A DNA stretch of 64,000 nucleotides from Bdellovibrionales bacterium Ga0074139. GTDB lineage: Bacteria > Bdellovibrionota > Bdellovibrionia > Bdellovibrionales > Bdellovibrionaceae. The translations under genes and the position numbers were made by a program. The stretch spans positions 62,001-126,000 of the forward strand of contig LNEB01000012.1 of the NCBI GenBank assembly GCA_001464795.1, given 5' to 3'. Under the pieces are notes generated by a model that saw only the letters and a list, made by a program, of their open reading frames with translations, did no database searches and had not been told where the DNA came from. How positions within the stretch are numbered: position 1 is the first letter of the stretch; every line of letters begins with the position of its first letter. This document shows positions 34,231 through 43,320 of this stretch, piece after piece.

Positions 34231-37086
34231 TTACACATTCGCATCAGGATAAAGTTCACGAATTTTTTCTTCTTTAACAAAGGCTTCAATCACGTCGCCA
34301 ACCTTCATGTCATTGAAGTTTTCAATTCCCACACCGCACTCGAAACCTTGAGCGACTTCTTTTGCGTCATCTTTGAAACGCTTGAGGCTTGAAATTTTAC
34401 TTTCAAATACAATTTTACCATCACGGATCAAGCGGATTTGATTCGATCTTTGGATTTTTCCATCCACGATAAAGCAACCTGCGATAAGACCAATTTTGGG
34501 AACAGTGAAAGTGTTTCTAACTTCCGCACGGCCCATGATTTTTTCAACGATATCAGGAGTGAGTAAACCACTCATGACACGCTTCATATCATCAACCATC
34601 TCGTAAACAATCGAATAGGTGCGAACTTCAACGCCCATTTGTTTCGCTTTATTCATCGATACAGTGTCGGGTCTTACGTTAAATCCGATCACCATACCTT
34701 TAGCAGTATGAGCAAGCAGAATATCTGATTCCGAAATTCCACCCACAGCTGTCATCAGCACGCGGATTTTCACTTCAGGAGTGTTAAGCTTATTAAGTAA
34801 TCCCAAGATCGCTTCAAGGGATCCATGAACGTCAGCTTTCACGATAATAGGAAGCTCTTTCAGATCACCTTGTTTGGCTTTCGAGAAAATTTCTTCCAAA
34901 GTTTTCTTTTGTGAACTTTGTGCAAGTAATGCCAAAGCTTGTTCTCTGCGAGTGGCTGCAACGGATTCCGCTTGTTTTTCGTCAGAGACGATATCAAATC
35001 GGTCACCGGCTGCTGGTACATCAGCAAGTCCCAAAACTTCCACAGGATAACCTGGTAAAGTTCGATCTACTTTTTTGCCTTGATCGTTGGTCATGGATTT
35101 AATTTTACCCCAGGTCACACCGGCTACGATGTACTGGCCCACTTCCACGAAACCATCTTTCACTAAAATGGAGGCCACAGGTCCACGGCCTTTTTCCATT
35201 TTGGCTTCGATCACAAGGCCTGTTCCAGAACGTAAAGGATTGGCTTTCAATTCCTGAACTTCAGCGACCAATTTAATTTGCTCAAGTAATTCATCAAGTC
35301 CTGTTCGCTTCAATGCAGAAACAGGAGCATAAATCGTAGTGCCTCCCCACTCTTCAGGAACGAGTTCCATCTCAGTGAGTTGTTGCTTAATTTTTTCTGG
35401 ATTAGCACCAGGCTTATCCATTTTATTAACAGCCACGATGATGGGAACTCCAGCCGCTTTGGCGTGGCTAATGGCTTCCTGAGTTTGTGGCATCATTCCA
35501 TCGTCAGCCGCGACAACGATCACCGCAATGTCAGTGGCATTGGCTCCACGGGCTCGCATGGCAGTAAAGGCCGCGTGACCAGGAGTATCTAAGAATGTAA
35601 TCACAAAACCATCGGGCAATGTCACAGAGTAAGCACCAATGTGCTGAGTGATTCCACCCGCTTCGCCAGCAGCCACTTTTGTGGATCTGATGGCATCAAG
35701 CAGTGAAGTTTTTCCGTGATCGACGTGACCCATAATGGTCACCACTGGTGGGCGTGTTACACGCTCGGCACCGGTATCACCAAAAGTGTCCGCGTTGACA
35801 ATTTCTTCTGCTGTTTTCAATGTGTTTTTGGCTTCCCATCCGAAATCAGTCACCACAAGGGCTAAGGTATCGAAATCAAGGCTGGTATTCATATTGGCCA
35901 TCACACCATTGTTCATTAATACTTTGATCAATTGAGGGGCTTTAATTCCCATATTTTGTGCCGCTTGAGAAAGCTTCATGGTGCCATAAACTTCAAGCAC
36001 ACGTTTAGAGGCTTTGGCCTGTGTAAGTTCAGTTTTTTTACCCACTCGGCCGATTTGATCTTTTTTCTTTTTAGGTTGGAAAACCATTTCTCGTTTACGA
36101 AATTCAACGGCATTGAATTGCAGTAGTTCTTCTTGCTCGCGCTCTTTAGCTGACTGAGTGGCTCCAGTGCCTTCTAATTTTTTACTGCGTTTCGCAAAAT
36201 CTTTTCTGGCTTGTTCGGCTGGATCCTCGAACCCAACTGTGGGTTCAATAACAGGATTGGTTTGAGCAACAAAGCCTGCGCGTAATCCACGGTTGGCTGT
36301 GCTTCTTGGAGGAGCCGAGAATCCACCGGGACGAGGACCCGCTTGATTGTTGTTACCATGTTGAAATCCACCGCTGCCTTGAGGACGAAAACTTTGTCCT
36401 TGAGGAGGCTGAACGCGTGATAAATCCATGCGTCCCACAATGTTTCTTCGTGGGGCATTCACTGGAGTTGAGGAACTGGCCACACCACTGTTACCAACAA
36501 CCACTTCTTTTTTTCTTGCAGGCGTTGGAGCTGCTGCAGGAGTGGGAGCGACAGGTGCTGCTGCCACAGGAGCTGGTTTTTCTTCTACTTTTTCAACTTC
36601 AATTTTTTTAACTTCTACTTTTTTCACTTCCACAGCAGCTACGGGAGCCGCCACTTCAGCAGCCACTGGTGCAGCCACAGGAGCTGCAGGTGTCTCAACA
36701 ACTTCTTCCACTTCTTCAACAGCTGCCGCTTCTAAGGCTTTTTTAGCAAGTTCTTCAGCAGGCGTGGCTTTTCTTCGAACCACAGTTGAGGCTTTAGGTG
36801 CCACTTCCACTTTTGCTTTGGATCCCGCTTTTGAAAGTGCCTCAGTGGCGGCTGCTGCTTTTTTAGCCGGAGCTTTTTTAGCCGCTGTGACTTTTTTAAC
36901 TTTAGAGGGCTGCTCTGAGCCGCCGCTGGCGCCCGCAAGTTTTTGCTTTAATTGCTCAAGAACACTGGGCTCAAGTTCCGCCATATGAGATTTTACGGGA
37001 ATTTGCCATTCACGTATTTTGTCCATCAGGGCCAAGGGCGTCATGCCAATTTCTTTCGCGTATTCAAAAACTTTTGGGTTGCTCAC
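34231..37086 (-). CDS. infB: Translation initiation factor IF-2
   Basis: 951 residues. The IF2 N-terminal domain ([18 protein letters not shown]) is followed by a long Ala/Lys/Pro/Val-rich low-complexity linker (about 55-230). The G domain has GHVDHGKTS (about 454), DTPGHAAF and NKMD, then the C-terminal domains with the initiator-tRNA-binding C2 part. The linker is full of repeated short phrases ([16 protein letters not shown]), so the antisense strand there reads as an open frame by composition only. It guides fMet-tRNA to the 30S subunit. Confidence 0.97.
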
Positions 37087-37128: not shown

Positions 37129-38523
37129 TTACTCTTCAGATGTTTGACCATCTAATTTTGATAACTCTTCTTTTAATCTTTGCTCAGCTTGTTCTTTTGA
37201 TGAACCAGTGGCTTTCACTTCCTTAGCAGCTGTTGGCAGAGTAGGAATCGGTGTTCCTTCTGATTTGTACTTTTCAACTAGAGTTTTAGAATCATTGATT
37301 AACTTTTCAGCTTTCGTAGGATCATCGTAACCTGGGATGCTCATGACTTCTTCAACAGAAGCTTCTGCTACCATTTTGAATGTTGCAAAACCAGACTGAT
37401 AAACATTTTGAGCCATGGTTTCATTCATTCCAGGAATCAATGTCAGATTGTAAATGCTTTCAGCTGTTCTTGATGAAGAAGCACTGACAGATGTGATGTC
37501 CAATTTCCAGCCTGTTAATTTAGCAGCTAATCTTACGTTTTGGCCTTTTCGACCAATGGCAAGGCTAAGCTGAGTGTCAGGGACCACGATTTCCATTTCA
37601 CGGTTGGTTTCATCGACGAATACTTTTGAGATTTCAGCAGGTGCCAATGCATTCACTACATAACGAGTGACGTCTTCATCCCAAGGAACGATATCAATTT
37701 TTTCACCTTTTAGTTCTTGCACGATATTTTGGACTCGAGAGCCCTTCATACCCACACAAGCTCCGACAGGATCCACGGCTGCATCGTTTGAGCGAACAGC
37801 GATTTTAGCACGCTGACCGGGTTCACGAGCAGCTGCCATAATTTCCACGATTCCATCGTAGATTTCAGGAACTTCCAATTCAAAAAGTTTAATGAGGTAC
37901 TGCTCTGAGGCCCGGGACATGATGATTTGAGGACCACGAGTGCTTTGACGAACTTCTAATAAAAAGCCCTGCAAGCGATCGCCTGGCTTGTACTGTTCAC
38001 CGGGGATTTGTTCGCGCGGTGGAATAAAAGCTTCGGTACGACCAAGGTCAACCACGATAGCTCCCTTTTCCACACGGCGTGCAATACCAGAGGCGATTTC
38101 ACCCTTACGTTGTTCGAATTCGTTAAAAATGATTTCGCGTTCTGCGTCTCGCACTTTTTGTAAAATGATTTGCTTAGCGGTTTGCGCAGCAATTCGGCCG
38201 AGGTCATTGGATTCCATCTTGATACCGATCGAGTCACCCAGTTGAGCTTGAGGATCGAGTTTTAAAGCGTCTTCTTGAGTGATTTCCACTTCGTCATCGA
38301 TAAAATCTTCTTTTTTCACAACTTCTTTAAATTCAAAGAGTTCGATCTCGCCTGTTTCTTCATTGTAGCTGGCTTCGATTTCACGGTAAGTCCCGTATTT
38401 TTTTCGGGCTGCGAGTAACATTCCTTGAGTGATTGCATCTACAACAACAGCTTTATCGATACCTTTATCTTTACCAACTTGATCGATAACTCGGCTTAAT
38501 TCAGAAAACATATTGTCAGCCAT
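37129..38523 (-). CDS. nusA: Transcription termination/antitermination protein NusA
   Basis: 464 residues. The N-terminal RNA-polymerase-binding domain (about 1-125) is followed by S1 (about 130-200), KH1 and KH2 (about 205-345, with VGACVGMKGSRVQNIVQEL and LSLAIGRKGQNVRLAAKLTG). A C-terminal helix-hairpin-helix-like part follows (about 365-420). It modulates pausing, termination and antitermination. It lies between rimP and infB, the widespread arrangement in which NusA can regulate its own operon. Confidence 0.96.
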   Translation of the reverse strand: MADNMFSELSRVIDQVGKDKGIDKAVVVDAITQGMLLAARKKYGTYREIEASYNEETGEIELFEFKEVVKKEDFIDDEVEITQEDALKLDPQAQLGDSIGIKMESNDLGRIAAQTAKQIILQKVRDAEREIIFNEFEQRKGEIASGIARRVEKGAIVVDLGRTEAFIPPREQIPGEQYKPGDRLQGFLLEVRQSTRGPQIIMSRASEQYLIKLFELEVPEIYDGIVEIMAAAREPGQRAKIAVRSNDAAVDPVGACVGMKGSRVQNIVQELKGEKIDIVPWDEDVTRYVVNALAPAEISKVFVDETNREMEIVVPDTQLSLAIGRKGQNVRLAAKLTGWKLDITSVSASSSRTAESIYNLTLIPGMNETMAQNVYQSGFATFKMVAEASVEEVMSIPGYDDPTKAEKLINDSKTLVEKYKSEGTPIPTLPTAAKEVKATGSSKEQAEQRLKEELSKLDGQTSEE

Positions 38524-41901: not shown

Positions 41902-41988
41902 GGCCCTGTGGTGGAATTGGTAGACGCGCTGGACTCAAAATCCAGTGTCCGCAAGGACGTGGGAGTTCGATTCTCCCCGGGGCCACCA
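41902..41988 (+). tRNA. tRNA-Leu(CAA)
   Basis: 87 bases including an encoded CCA end. The acceptor GGCCCTG pairs with CGGGGCC, with A as discriminator. The anticodon stem CTGGA/TCCAG (41929-41945) carries the loop CTCAAAA with anticodon CAA at 41936-41938, reading UUG. The long variable arm TGTCCGCAAGGACGT is typical of leucine tRNAs, and the T arm is GGGAG-TTCGATT-CTCCC. It stands at the border between conserved genes and a stretch of unfamiliar exported-protein genes. Confidence 0.97.
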
Positions 41989-42109
41989 AATCGGTGCCAG
42001 GCGCCTTATTGAAGGACTCGGTGAATCTTAATAGGTTAAAATGATTCCGTTGAATTGGGTATCCCGAAGCAATTACCAGTGAAGTAAGTATGACACCAAT
42101 TCTCAGTCT

Positions 42110-42502
42110 TTATGACTTCCCAGAAGCCACTTTTTTATCTGAAATCTCATTTCCTTTATATTTTCTTTTTTCGGGAGAAAAGAGATAGGCGGCAATGCAG
42201 ACTTTCTCATTTCCTTTTTTTAATTTTTCCCACTCTTTCATAAATTTTTTGCAATAAAGAGGAGAGCGCCAGTTTCGGTTCGAATAGGAATAGGAATGGG
42301 GTGAAGATGAAATGCGAAAACCAAGATCACAGACATCCACGCTTTCCTCACTGATCCATTGAACATGATCGTACTCGACGATGACATCAACTTGCTTGAT
42401 GTCAAAGCAAGTGAACATATCTTTAAATTTGTCTGGTTCTTTTGTTTCTTTTGAAAAGCTTAAACAAACAATGAATGAGATTAACAAAAACACGGTCTTC
42501 AT
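42110..42502 (-). CDS. Small exported protein of unknown function
   Basis: 130 residues. The signal peptide is MKTVFLLISFIVCLSFS. The mature part of about 113 residues has several Cys (FTCFDIKQ, VDVCDLGF, PLYCKKFM, KVCIAAYLF), which may form disulfides, and the C-terminus is basic. I do not recognise it. Its ATG overlaps the stop of the lysozyme-fold-like gene (ATGA), so the two are expressed together. Neighbour context suggests a partner of that protein. Confidence 0.7.
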   Translation of the reverse strand: MKTVFLLISFIVCLSFSKETKEPDKFKDMFTCFDIKQVDVIVEYDHVQWISEESVDVCDLGFRISSSPHSYSYSNRNWRSPLYCKKFMKEWEKLKKGNEKVCIAAYLFSPEKRKYKGNEISDKKVASGKS

Positions 42503-43320
42503 TCTGTATCCATTTCATTTAATATATTTTTTAATTTTTCCCTAACTTTGGCGCTCTCCGTTGTTTTACTTTTTAATCTTCCCTTATAATCCATTAATAC
42601 CTCAAACCATGTTGGCTCTCTTTTGAGTCGAGCTTTGGCCGTTTCTCTTTTTCTAAAAAGATGCCTAACTCCAAACGAAATATTTTTATTGGGGTCCCAT
42701 AAATCTTCATATTCAAGATCAATAAAGTGATCTTTATACTCATGCTGCTTGTGACTTTTTGCCAGACGAGTTGTCTGTTCTGTAAGTTGTAAAAGTCCTC
42801 GAGGCATCTTAAGATTAATTTTTGAAACCTTAACTTTTGGATTTAAAAATAAGTCGGAGGTCGCAATGAGTTCCATCTCGTCACCTTTAAGTAAGTCTTT
42901 TTTTGACGGGTTCTTTCGACAGTGTCCATCATGATCTGTGATTTTACCTTTCTTAAGTTGCTTAGGGTGTCTTTTTACCCAGTGCTGCCCGATCGGACAG
43001 ATTCGCCACGGGTTTTTTATCTCAATATTCTGAGTGTCAAAGAAAGGAATTTTATGGACTTTAGATTCTGGAACAATTTTTCCAATGAATTGGCTCCACT
43101 GAACAAATTCCCAAGGAGCTCCTAATTCTTTCTGAAGTTGTTTTTGCGCGTAGTAAGCTTTATCTGCACTCACTTTTTTTTTGGTCTTAAAAGGGATTTG
43201 ATACTCAAACTCAGGTTTAATTTTACTTTTCTTTAAGAAGAAGAAACTAATATTGTCGTTTTTGGAAAAAAGTGATTCCAAAAGTTGCTTAATTTGAGAT
43301 TTTTCTTCTTTAGTAGCCAT
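42499..43320 (-). CDS. Lysozyme-fold (SLT-like) protein apparently lacking the catalytic Glu
   Basis: 273 residues from the ATG at 43320, with no visible signal peptide and no ribosome-binding site. Residues about 149-250 follow the lytic transglycosylase pattern: PRGLLQLTEQTTRL (173-186) for the G-L-M-Q motif, DPNKNISFGVRHLF (209-222) for the D-P-x-x-N-I-x-x-G motif, and DYKG (244-247) at the place of A-Y-N-x-G. In the usual E-S position the sequence reads LIATSDLFLNP (151-161), without Glu. Upstream is a Cys/His cluster (C108, H113, H118, H130, H133, C134). It may bind peptidoglycan without cutting it, or use another residue. It is coupled to the small exported protein downstream. Confidence 0.6.
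   Translation of the reverse strand: MATKEEKSQIKQLLESLFSKNDNISFFFLKKSKIKPEFEYQIPFKTKKKVSADKAYYAQKQLQKELGAPWEFVQWSQFIGKIVPESKVHKIPFFDTQNIEIKNPWRICPIGQHWVKRHPKQLKKGKITDHDGHCRKNPSKKDLLKGDEMELIATSDLFLNPKVKVSKINLKMPRGLLQLTEQTTRLAKSHKQHEYKDHFIDLEYEDLWDPNKNISFGVRHLFRKRETAKARLKREPTWFEVLMDYKGRLKSKTTESAKVREKLKNILNEMDTE

Follow-up and report, generated by a model that had tools for sequence, protein, structure and literature searches.

Probable remnant of a two-gene, peptidoglycan-hydrolase/immunity-like cassette in a Bdellovibrionota genome

The window, a stretch of 64,000 nucleotides, comes from a genome of 2.9 Mb (15 contigs, 97% complete). It carries two minus-strand genes that overlap by ATGA, the first related to soluble lytic transglycosylases (SLT) and the second encoding an exported partner. 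The features of the locus, with the evidence on which each was assigned, are as follows.

42499..43320, minus strand: internally deleted SLT-family ORF of 273 aa (ORF call, SLT profile and alignments).
43021..43320, minus strand: N-terminal domain, residues 1-100, a degenerate MNT-type nucleotidyltransferase (profile-profile match).
42895..43014, minus strand: Cys/His motif domain, NPWRxCPxGxHWVxRH...DGHCRKNPSKKD (near-invariant across the main part of the family).
42803..42804, minus strand: junction of a 183-nt (61-codon) in-frame deletion (DNA alignment with two relatives).
42502..42801, minus strand: remnant of the SLT domain with GLLQ, DPNKNI and DYKG motifs (SLT profile and homologue alignment).
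42110..42502, minus strand: exported partner ORF, truncated by a frameshift to 130 aa, against 154 aa in the sister species (ORF and DNA alignment).
42131..42136, minus strand: run of A, the site at which the partner loses its frame (DNA alignment).
42036..42130, minus strand: former C-terminal coding segment of the partner, ending ..ENWCHTYFTGNCFGIPNSTESF and a stop, now out of frame (DNA alignment).
41902..41988, plus strand: tRNA-Leu(CAA), its 3' end toward the cassette (also borders the sister-species cassette).

A sequence-only reading of this locus had described a 273-residue protein with motifs of a lytic transglycosylase, a Cys/His cluster and no signal peptide, followed by an ATGA-overlapping gene for an exported protein. 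This description holds: the ORF is real and matches PF01464 weakly in its C-terminal part, the Cys/His cluster is present and a signal peptide absent, and the 130-aa product begins like a signal peptide. The SLT match scores 20.2 bits, under the curated Pfam cut-off of 21.3, and spans residues 167-248, corresponding to profile positions 34-97 only. In a profile-profile comparison (hhalign probability 90%, E 1.5e-6, 95 columns), residues 1-100 of the window subtype align with the active-type MNT domains, assigned by Pfam, that relatives carry fused to the same enzyme. The GSR...DxD catalytic motif, present in most of the relatives' MNT domains, is absent from the window-subtype N-terminal alignment, and the window's N-terminal domain has no match to Pfam NTase. 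On these profiles and alignments, three parts make up the window protein: a degenerate MNT domain, the Cys/His module and what is left of a broken SLT domain.

The central point of the earlier reading, a lysozyme-fold protein that naturally lacks its catalytic Glu and carries T-S-D where E-S is expected, proved wrong. When GTDB genomes were scanned for patterns of the deleted window protein, three relatives came up, their proteins some 60 residues longer; intact relatives of the window subtype have 334-341 aa, and relatives are up to 90% identical. The window's LIATSDLFLNP aligns with LILTSDLFLDP of the sister species, and TSD is thus the normal segment of this subtype at that position. Intact homologues carry both this segment and, further downstream, KALIATES(T/G)F, within a catalytic segment that reads HPNYVKALIATEST. 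In the DNA alignment, sequence matching the sister species flanks a clean, in-frame gap of 183 nt in the window, at 42804/42803, which fuses LKMP to RGLLQ and takes with it the catalytic helix (KALIATES in relatives). The catalytic Glu of the ES motif was removed along with 61 codons. Three to four nucleotides of microhomology possibly mark the junction, and no other contig of the source genome contains the deleted segment. Alignment of homologues places a conserved Glu in the active groove: among 120 non-redundant homologues, 117 have the ES pattern and one has E-T, the exceptions being the window copy and the fragment L031. On this comparison, the Glu is almost certainly missing through deletion, and its absence reflects the loss of 61 codons, not a new function of the protein.

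These observations leave two proposals of the sequence-only reading, a non-cutting peptidoglycan reader and a modified enzyme, unsupported, since homologues keep the Glu and the deletion took the catalytic helix. That a dead reader of peptidoglycan has been selected as such is a very improbable alternative. It would accord with a deletion that is in frame, with the rest of the ORF open, and with a dN/dS of about 0.19 against the sister copy. However, the helix-bearing catalytic core was removed and not the Glu alone, the 183-nt deletion is seen in the source genome only, and the partner is broken as well.

The damage to the partner is of a different kind. In the DNA alignment with the sister species, its frame is lost in the A-run at 42131-42136 and with it the conserved C-terminus (WCHTYFxGNC), whose codons persist in another frame as far as 42036. 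A homopolymer is a typical site of error, and a sequencing error could account for the frameshift by itself; the idea that the whole locus is intact in reality and was damaged only by sequencing or assembly starts from here. It deserves hardly any credence, because a clean loss of 183 nt is unusual, and unlikely, as a sequencing error, its segment is found on no other contig, and large genes nearby are intact (e.g. 34231-37086 and 37129-38523). With the catalytic helix deleted in frame and the partner frameshifted, the two window genes most likely no longer work. Compared with the sister copy, their dN/dS is 0.19 and 0.21, about 0.2 for both genes; therefore, if there is decay, it set in recently or what is left of the sequence remains under constraint. 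Polarised substitution counts (12 synonymous and 14 nonsynonymous vs 15 and 13) give no sign of relaxed selection on the branch leading to the window copy. The two genes are likely recent pseudogenes, a pair from an uncharacterised family of effector-immunity-like type, and the source genome also has two intact modules (loci L053 and L117).

To follow this family, 293 Bdellovibrionota genomes were searched with a profile built from 23 members, and the homologue set of 120 non-redundant proteins from Bdellovibrionota loci was examined, 119 of them for counts of gene coupling. The family is patchily distributed in the phylum, a genome having up to several copies; at locus L098 (13.2 kb), the module occurs several times within about 10 kb of a single contig. 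The enzyme can be aligned across the whole family. All 23 profile members match SLT at E <= 0.1 (best 1e-14), intact members exceed the PF01464 cut-off, with the sister-species protein reaching 40.4 bits against 21.3, and the family profile puts the conserved Glu on the ES of MltE/EmtA structures. AlphaFold models of the intact sister-species enzyme (mean pLDDT 42.7, from an alignment of 5 sequences) and of its partner (mean pLDDT 54) were too low in confidence for the fold to be read. Inspection of family enzymes revealed no signal peptide in those read. Many short forms begin with a Lys-rich tail, whose median net charge is +0.33 per residue in 38 proteins; a bearing of this tail on membrane passage is speculation.

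The main part of the family shares the motif (P)WRxCPxGxHWVxxH...GHCxxNPSxKD, while a second branch (e.g. L046, L131 and L133) is without most of it. The Cys/His motif also follows the signal peptide in exported HExxH proteins (L165, L166 and L168-L175), which are M90/Mx1-like with weak Pfam matches. Because the motif occurs after the signal peptide of these exported, peptidase-like proteins, it is suggested to work outside the cytoplasm. A search of the PDB with the Cys/His domain gave no match. Plasmid collections, INPHARED phages and IMG/VR gave no match to the family, and no mobile carrier was identified among them. A phage endolysin or virion muramidase was rejected as an identity for the enzyme, INPHARED and IMG/VR being without a match and PHROG yielding only weak transglycosylase/endolysin matches. 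The open-licence literature searched contained no published description of the family, which is apparently an undescribed cassette widespread in Bdellovibrio-type bacteria.

In intact loci, the enzyme is usually coupled to an exported partner. An automatic heuristic placed a signal-peptide-bearing ORF directly after the enzyme in 101 of 119 cases, vs 47 of 356 control ORFs (Fisher p about 3e-47), and by eye an exported partner follows in about 112-113 of the 119. In the 101 cases found automatically, this ORF starts between -56 and +33 nt, counted from where the enzyme's stop codon ends, most commonly at -4, -16, -20 or -23. About six enzymes are without an adjacent partner (L109, L112, L119, L126, L128 and one L098 copy), a point against an effector-immunity pair. 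Partners are mostly Cys-containing exported proteins or lipoproteins, and the usual one has no Pfam match. The two genes differ greatly in conservation: by BLAST, 4948 of 4950 pairs of enzyme C-termini are related, vs 1127 of 4950 pairs of partners, and the partners fall into five unrelated groups, including GH18-like and HCC-motif ones. The GH18-like exported partner, at L002:6944-7915 and L036:6656-7627, is unrelated to the usual Cys-containing one. Partners that look like enzymes are odd for an immunity protein.

A conserved enzyme with a highly divergent, swapped partner is, as far as comparison of the genes can tell, what an effector-immunity pair would look like. We regard intact pairs as probably such a combination, and the best reading of the window is a decayed copy of a two-gene, peptidoglycan-hydrolase/immunity-like cassette of the Bdellovibrionota. 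Gene 1 of an intact cassette would supply a lytic-transglycosylase-type enzyme of SLT fold, with its Cys/His module and no signal peptide, and gene 2, usually overlapping it, would supply the exported Cys-containing protein or lipoprotein. Inert in the cytoplasm of its producer, the enzyme would be an antibacterial effector that cuts peptidoglycan once it has arrived in the periplasm of another cell or been freed on lysis, and the partner, residing in the producer's periplasm, would block it. Activity, toxicity, neutralisation and delivery of the intact pair are what we infer here. Of the earlier suggestion of an enzyme with an exported partner or inhibitor, the pairing stands for the intact family, in which about 94% of the 119 enzymes are followed by an overlapping or adjacent, fast-diverging exported protein; inhibition is the conjectural part. 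Three damaged loci fit an antidote that is worth keeping without its toxin, although the cases are few. At L177, where the ORF of 115 aa is on the minus strand, the enzyme has lost its core to another in-frame deletion, independent of the window's, and the downstream partner frame is open, and L176 and L071 likewise combine a dead enzyme with an open partner frame.

The partner could instead be an activator, an export chaperone or a co-enzyme, with the pair serving predation or remodelling of the cell's own wall. Predators in this lineage use many wall enzymes, according to two papers (PMC3276566, PMC7511926), and the GH18-like partner of L002 and L036 would fit such a role. We nevertheless consider this quite improbable, as a patchy, multicopy spread with swapping of partners is unlike a core remodelling enzyme and the enzyme itself is without an export signal.

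A further trait of the family is its association with toxin-antitoxin genes. Matches to Pfam families among 91 same-strand ORFs upstream of the enzymes include at least 10 to NTase_sub_bind, at least 5 to HepT, at least 4 each to Fic and HigB, at least 2 each to AbiEii and NTase, and at least 1 to HipA; these counts are lower bounds and the families may overlap. Toxin-antitoxin ORFs make up at least 23 of the 91 upstream vs at least 6 of 82 downstream, a difference with a Fisher p of about 0.002 when calculated on the lower bounds and with a downstream control set chosen by slightly different rules (either strand). PADLOC models (AbiEii and candidate systems) match some genes upstream of cassettes. 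Many copies, the window's included, have no toxin-antitoxin neighbour. At L090, L107, L113, L120, L121, L129, L130 and L132, the enzyme domain is itself fused to the C-terminus of a toxin-antitoxin domain or one of similar kind, namely MNT (L090, L120 and others), HepT (L129), Fic/DOC (L132) or DUF4325 (L113).

An alternative to the effector-immunity reading is self-lysis or abortive infection, in which the enzyme kills its producer once the upstream toxin-antitoxin module is triggered and the exported partner restrains it until then. The concentration of toxin-antitoxin components upstream, with few downstream, the fusions to MNT, HepT, Fic or DUF4325 and the PADLOC matches would all be expected. 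However, neither a holin nor another path from the cytoplasm to the cell's own wall was seen, many copies, that of the window among them, lack a toxin-antitoxin neighbour, and divergent, swapped partners better fit rivalry between strains. Self-lysis is an improbable account for these reasons. Within the effector-immunity reading, the cassette may be a weapon tethered to addiction modules, either lying upstream or fused to it (MNT, HepT, Fic, DUF4325), and delivered by neither a type VI (T6SS) nor a type IV (T4SS) secretion system. We put this forward only tentatively, as somewhat unlikely in this full form. If it is true, an effector tied to toxin-antitoxin components could not be lost without the risk of losing the antitoxin.

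Known routes of delivery were sought and none gained support, which counts against the effector-immunity reading. The T6SS sheath protein VipB was found in 0 of 100 relatives, the source genome included, which speaks against a T6SS effector; a contractile sheath was found in 1 of 100. VirB4 (PF03135) was not found in the source genome, which leaves a T4SS effector of the X-Tfe type unsupported there; 26 of 119 relatives are positive for VirB4. As for genomic position, the 3' end of tRNA-Leu(CAA) immediately adjoins the cassette in the window and also in the sister species (end of L003), and the genes on the other side differ. A search for a second copy of this tRNA end, as an attachment site would leave, found none.

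The family matters more than the window copy, itself probably a pseudogene pair, as it occurs widely in a phylum to which predators belong. If intact pairs are effector and antidote, they would represent an unrecognised route of attack or competition and of self-protection in these bacteria, and their fusions would join a weapon directly to an addiction module. MNT-HepT systems share with the cassette the MNT or HepT domain found at the N-terminus of several of its enzymes; in the cassette, however, this domain is fused to a putative wall-cutting enzyme, and the MNT motif is lost in the window subtype. MltE/EmtA and MltC have the same SLT catalytic domain, with the cassette Glu aligned with that of MltE, but they are exported lipoproteins for turnover of the cell's own wall, whereas the cassette family combines a Cys/His module with the lack of an export signal.

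Muramidase effectors of the T6SS have no Sec signal, and an adjacent immunity gene acts in the periplasm. The cassette resembles such pairs in its putative muralytic effector without Sec signal and its adjacent gene, and differs in that no T6SS sheath occurs in 100 relatives. Pesticin is a lysozyme-fold bacteriocin without a signal peptide, countered by a periplasmic antidote. The likeness extends to both components, the antidote of the cassette being putative; yet no homology was seen, and the cassette enzyme has no identified receptor-binding or translocation domain, its short forms bearing the Lys-rich N-terminal tail. The T6SS muramidase effectors include the pesticin-like VgrG3cp (PMC9927483). 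Within the phylum, Bdellovibrio bacteriovorus produces the DD-endopeptidase Bd3459 and the ankyrin self-protection protein Bd3460, which inhibits it (PMC4686830). Bd3459 is exported by a signal peptide and Bd3460 is built of ankyrin repeats, whereas the cassette enzyme is of predicted SLT fold and has no signal peptide, its usual partner contains Cys and matches no Pfam family, and the cassette is multicopy with a patchy distribution. In both cases, a gene for a peptidoglycan hydrolase is followed by one for an exported inhibitor, hydrolysis and inhibition being presumed in the cassette, and Bd3459/Bd3460 is the closest described precedent in the phylum.
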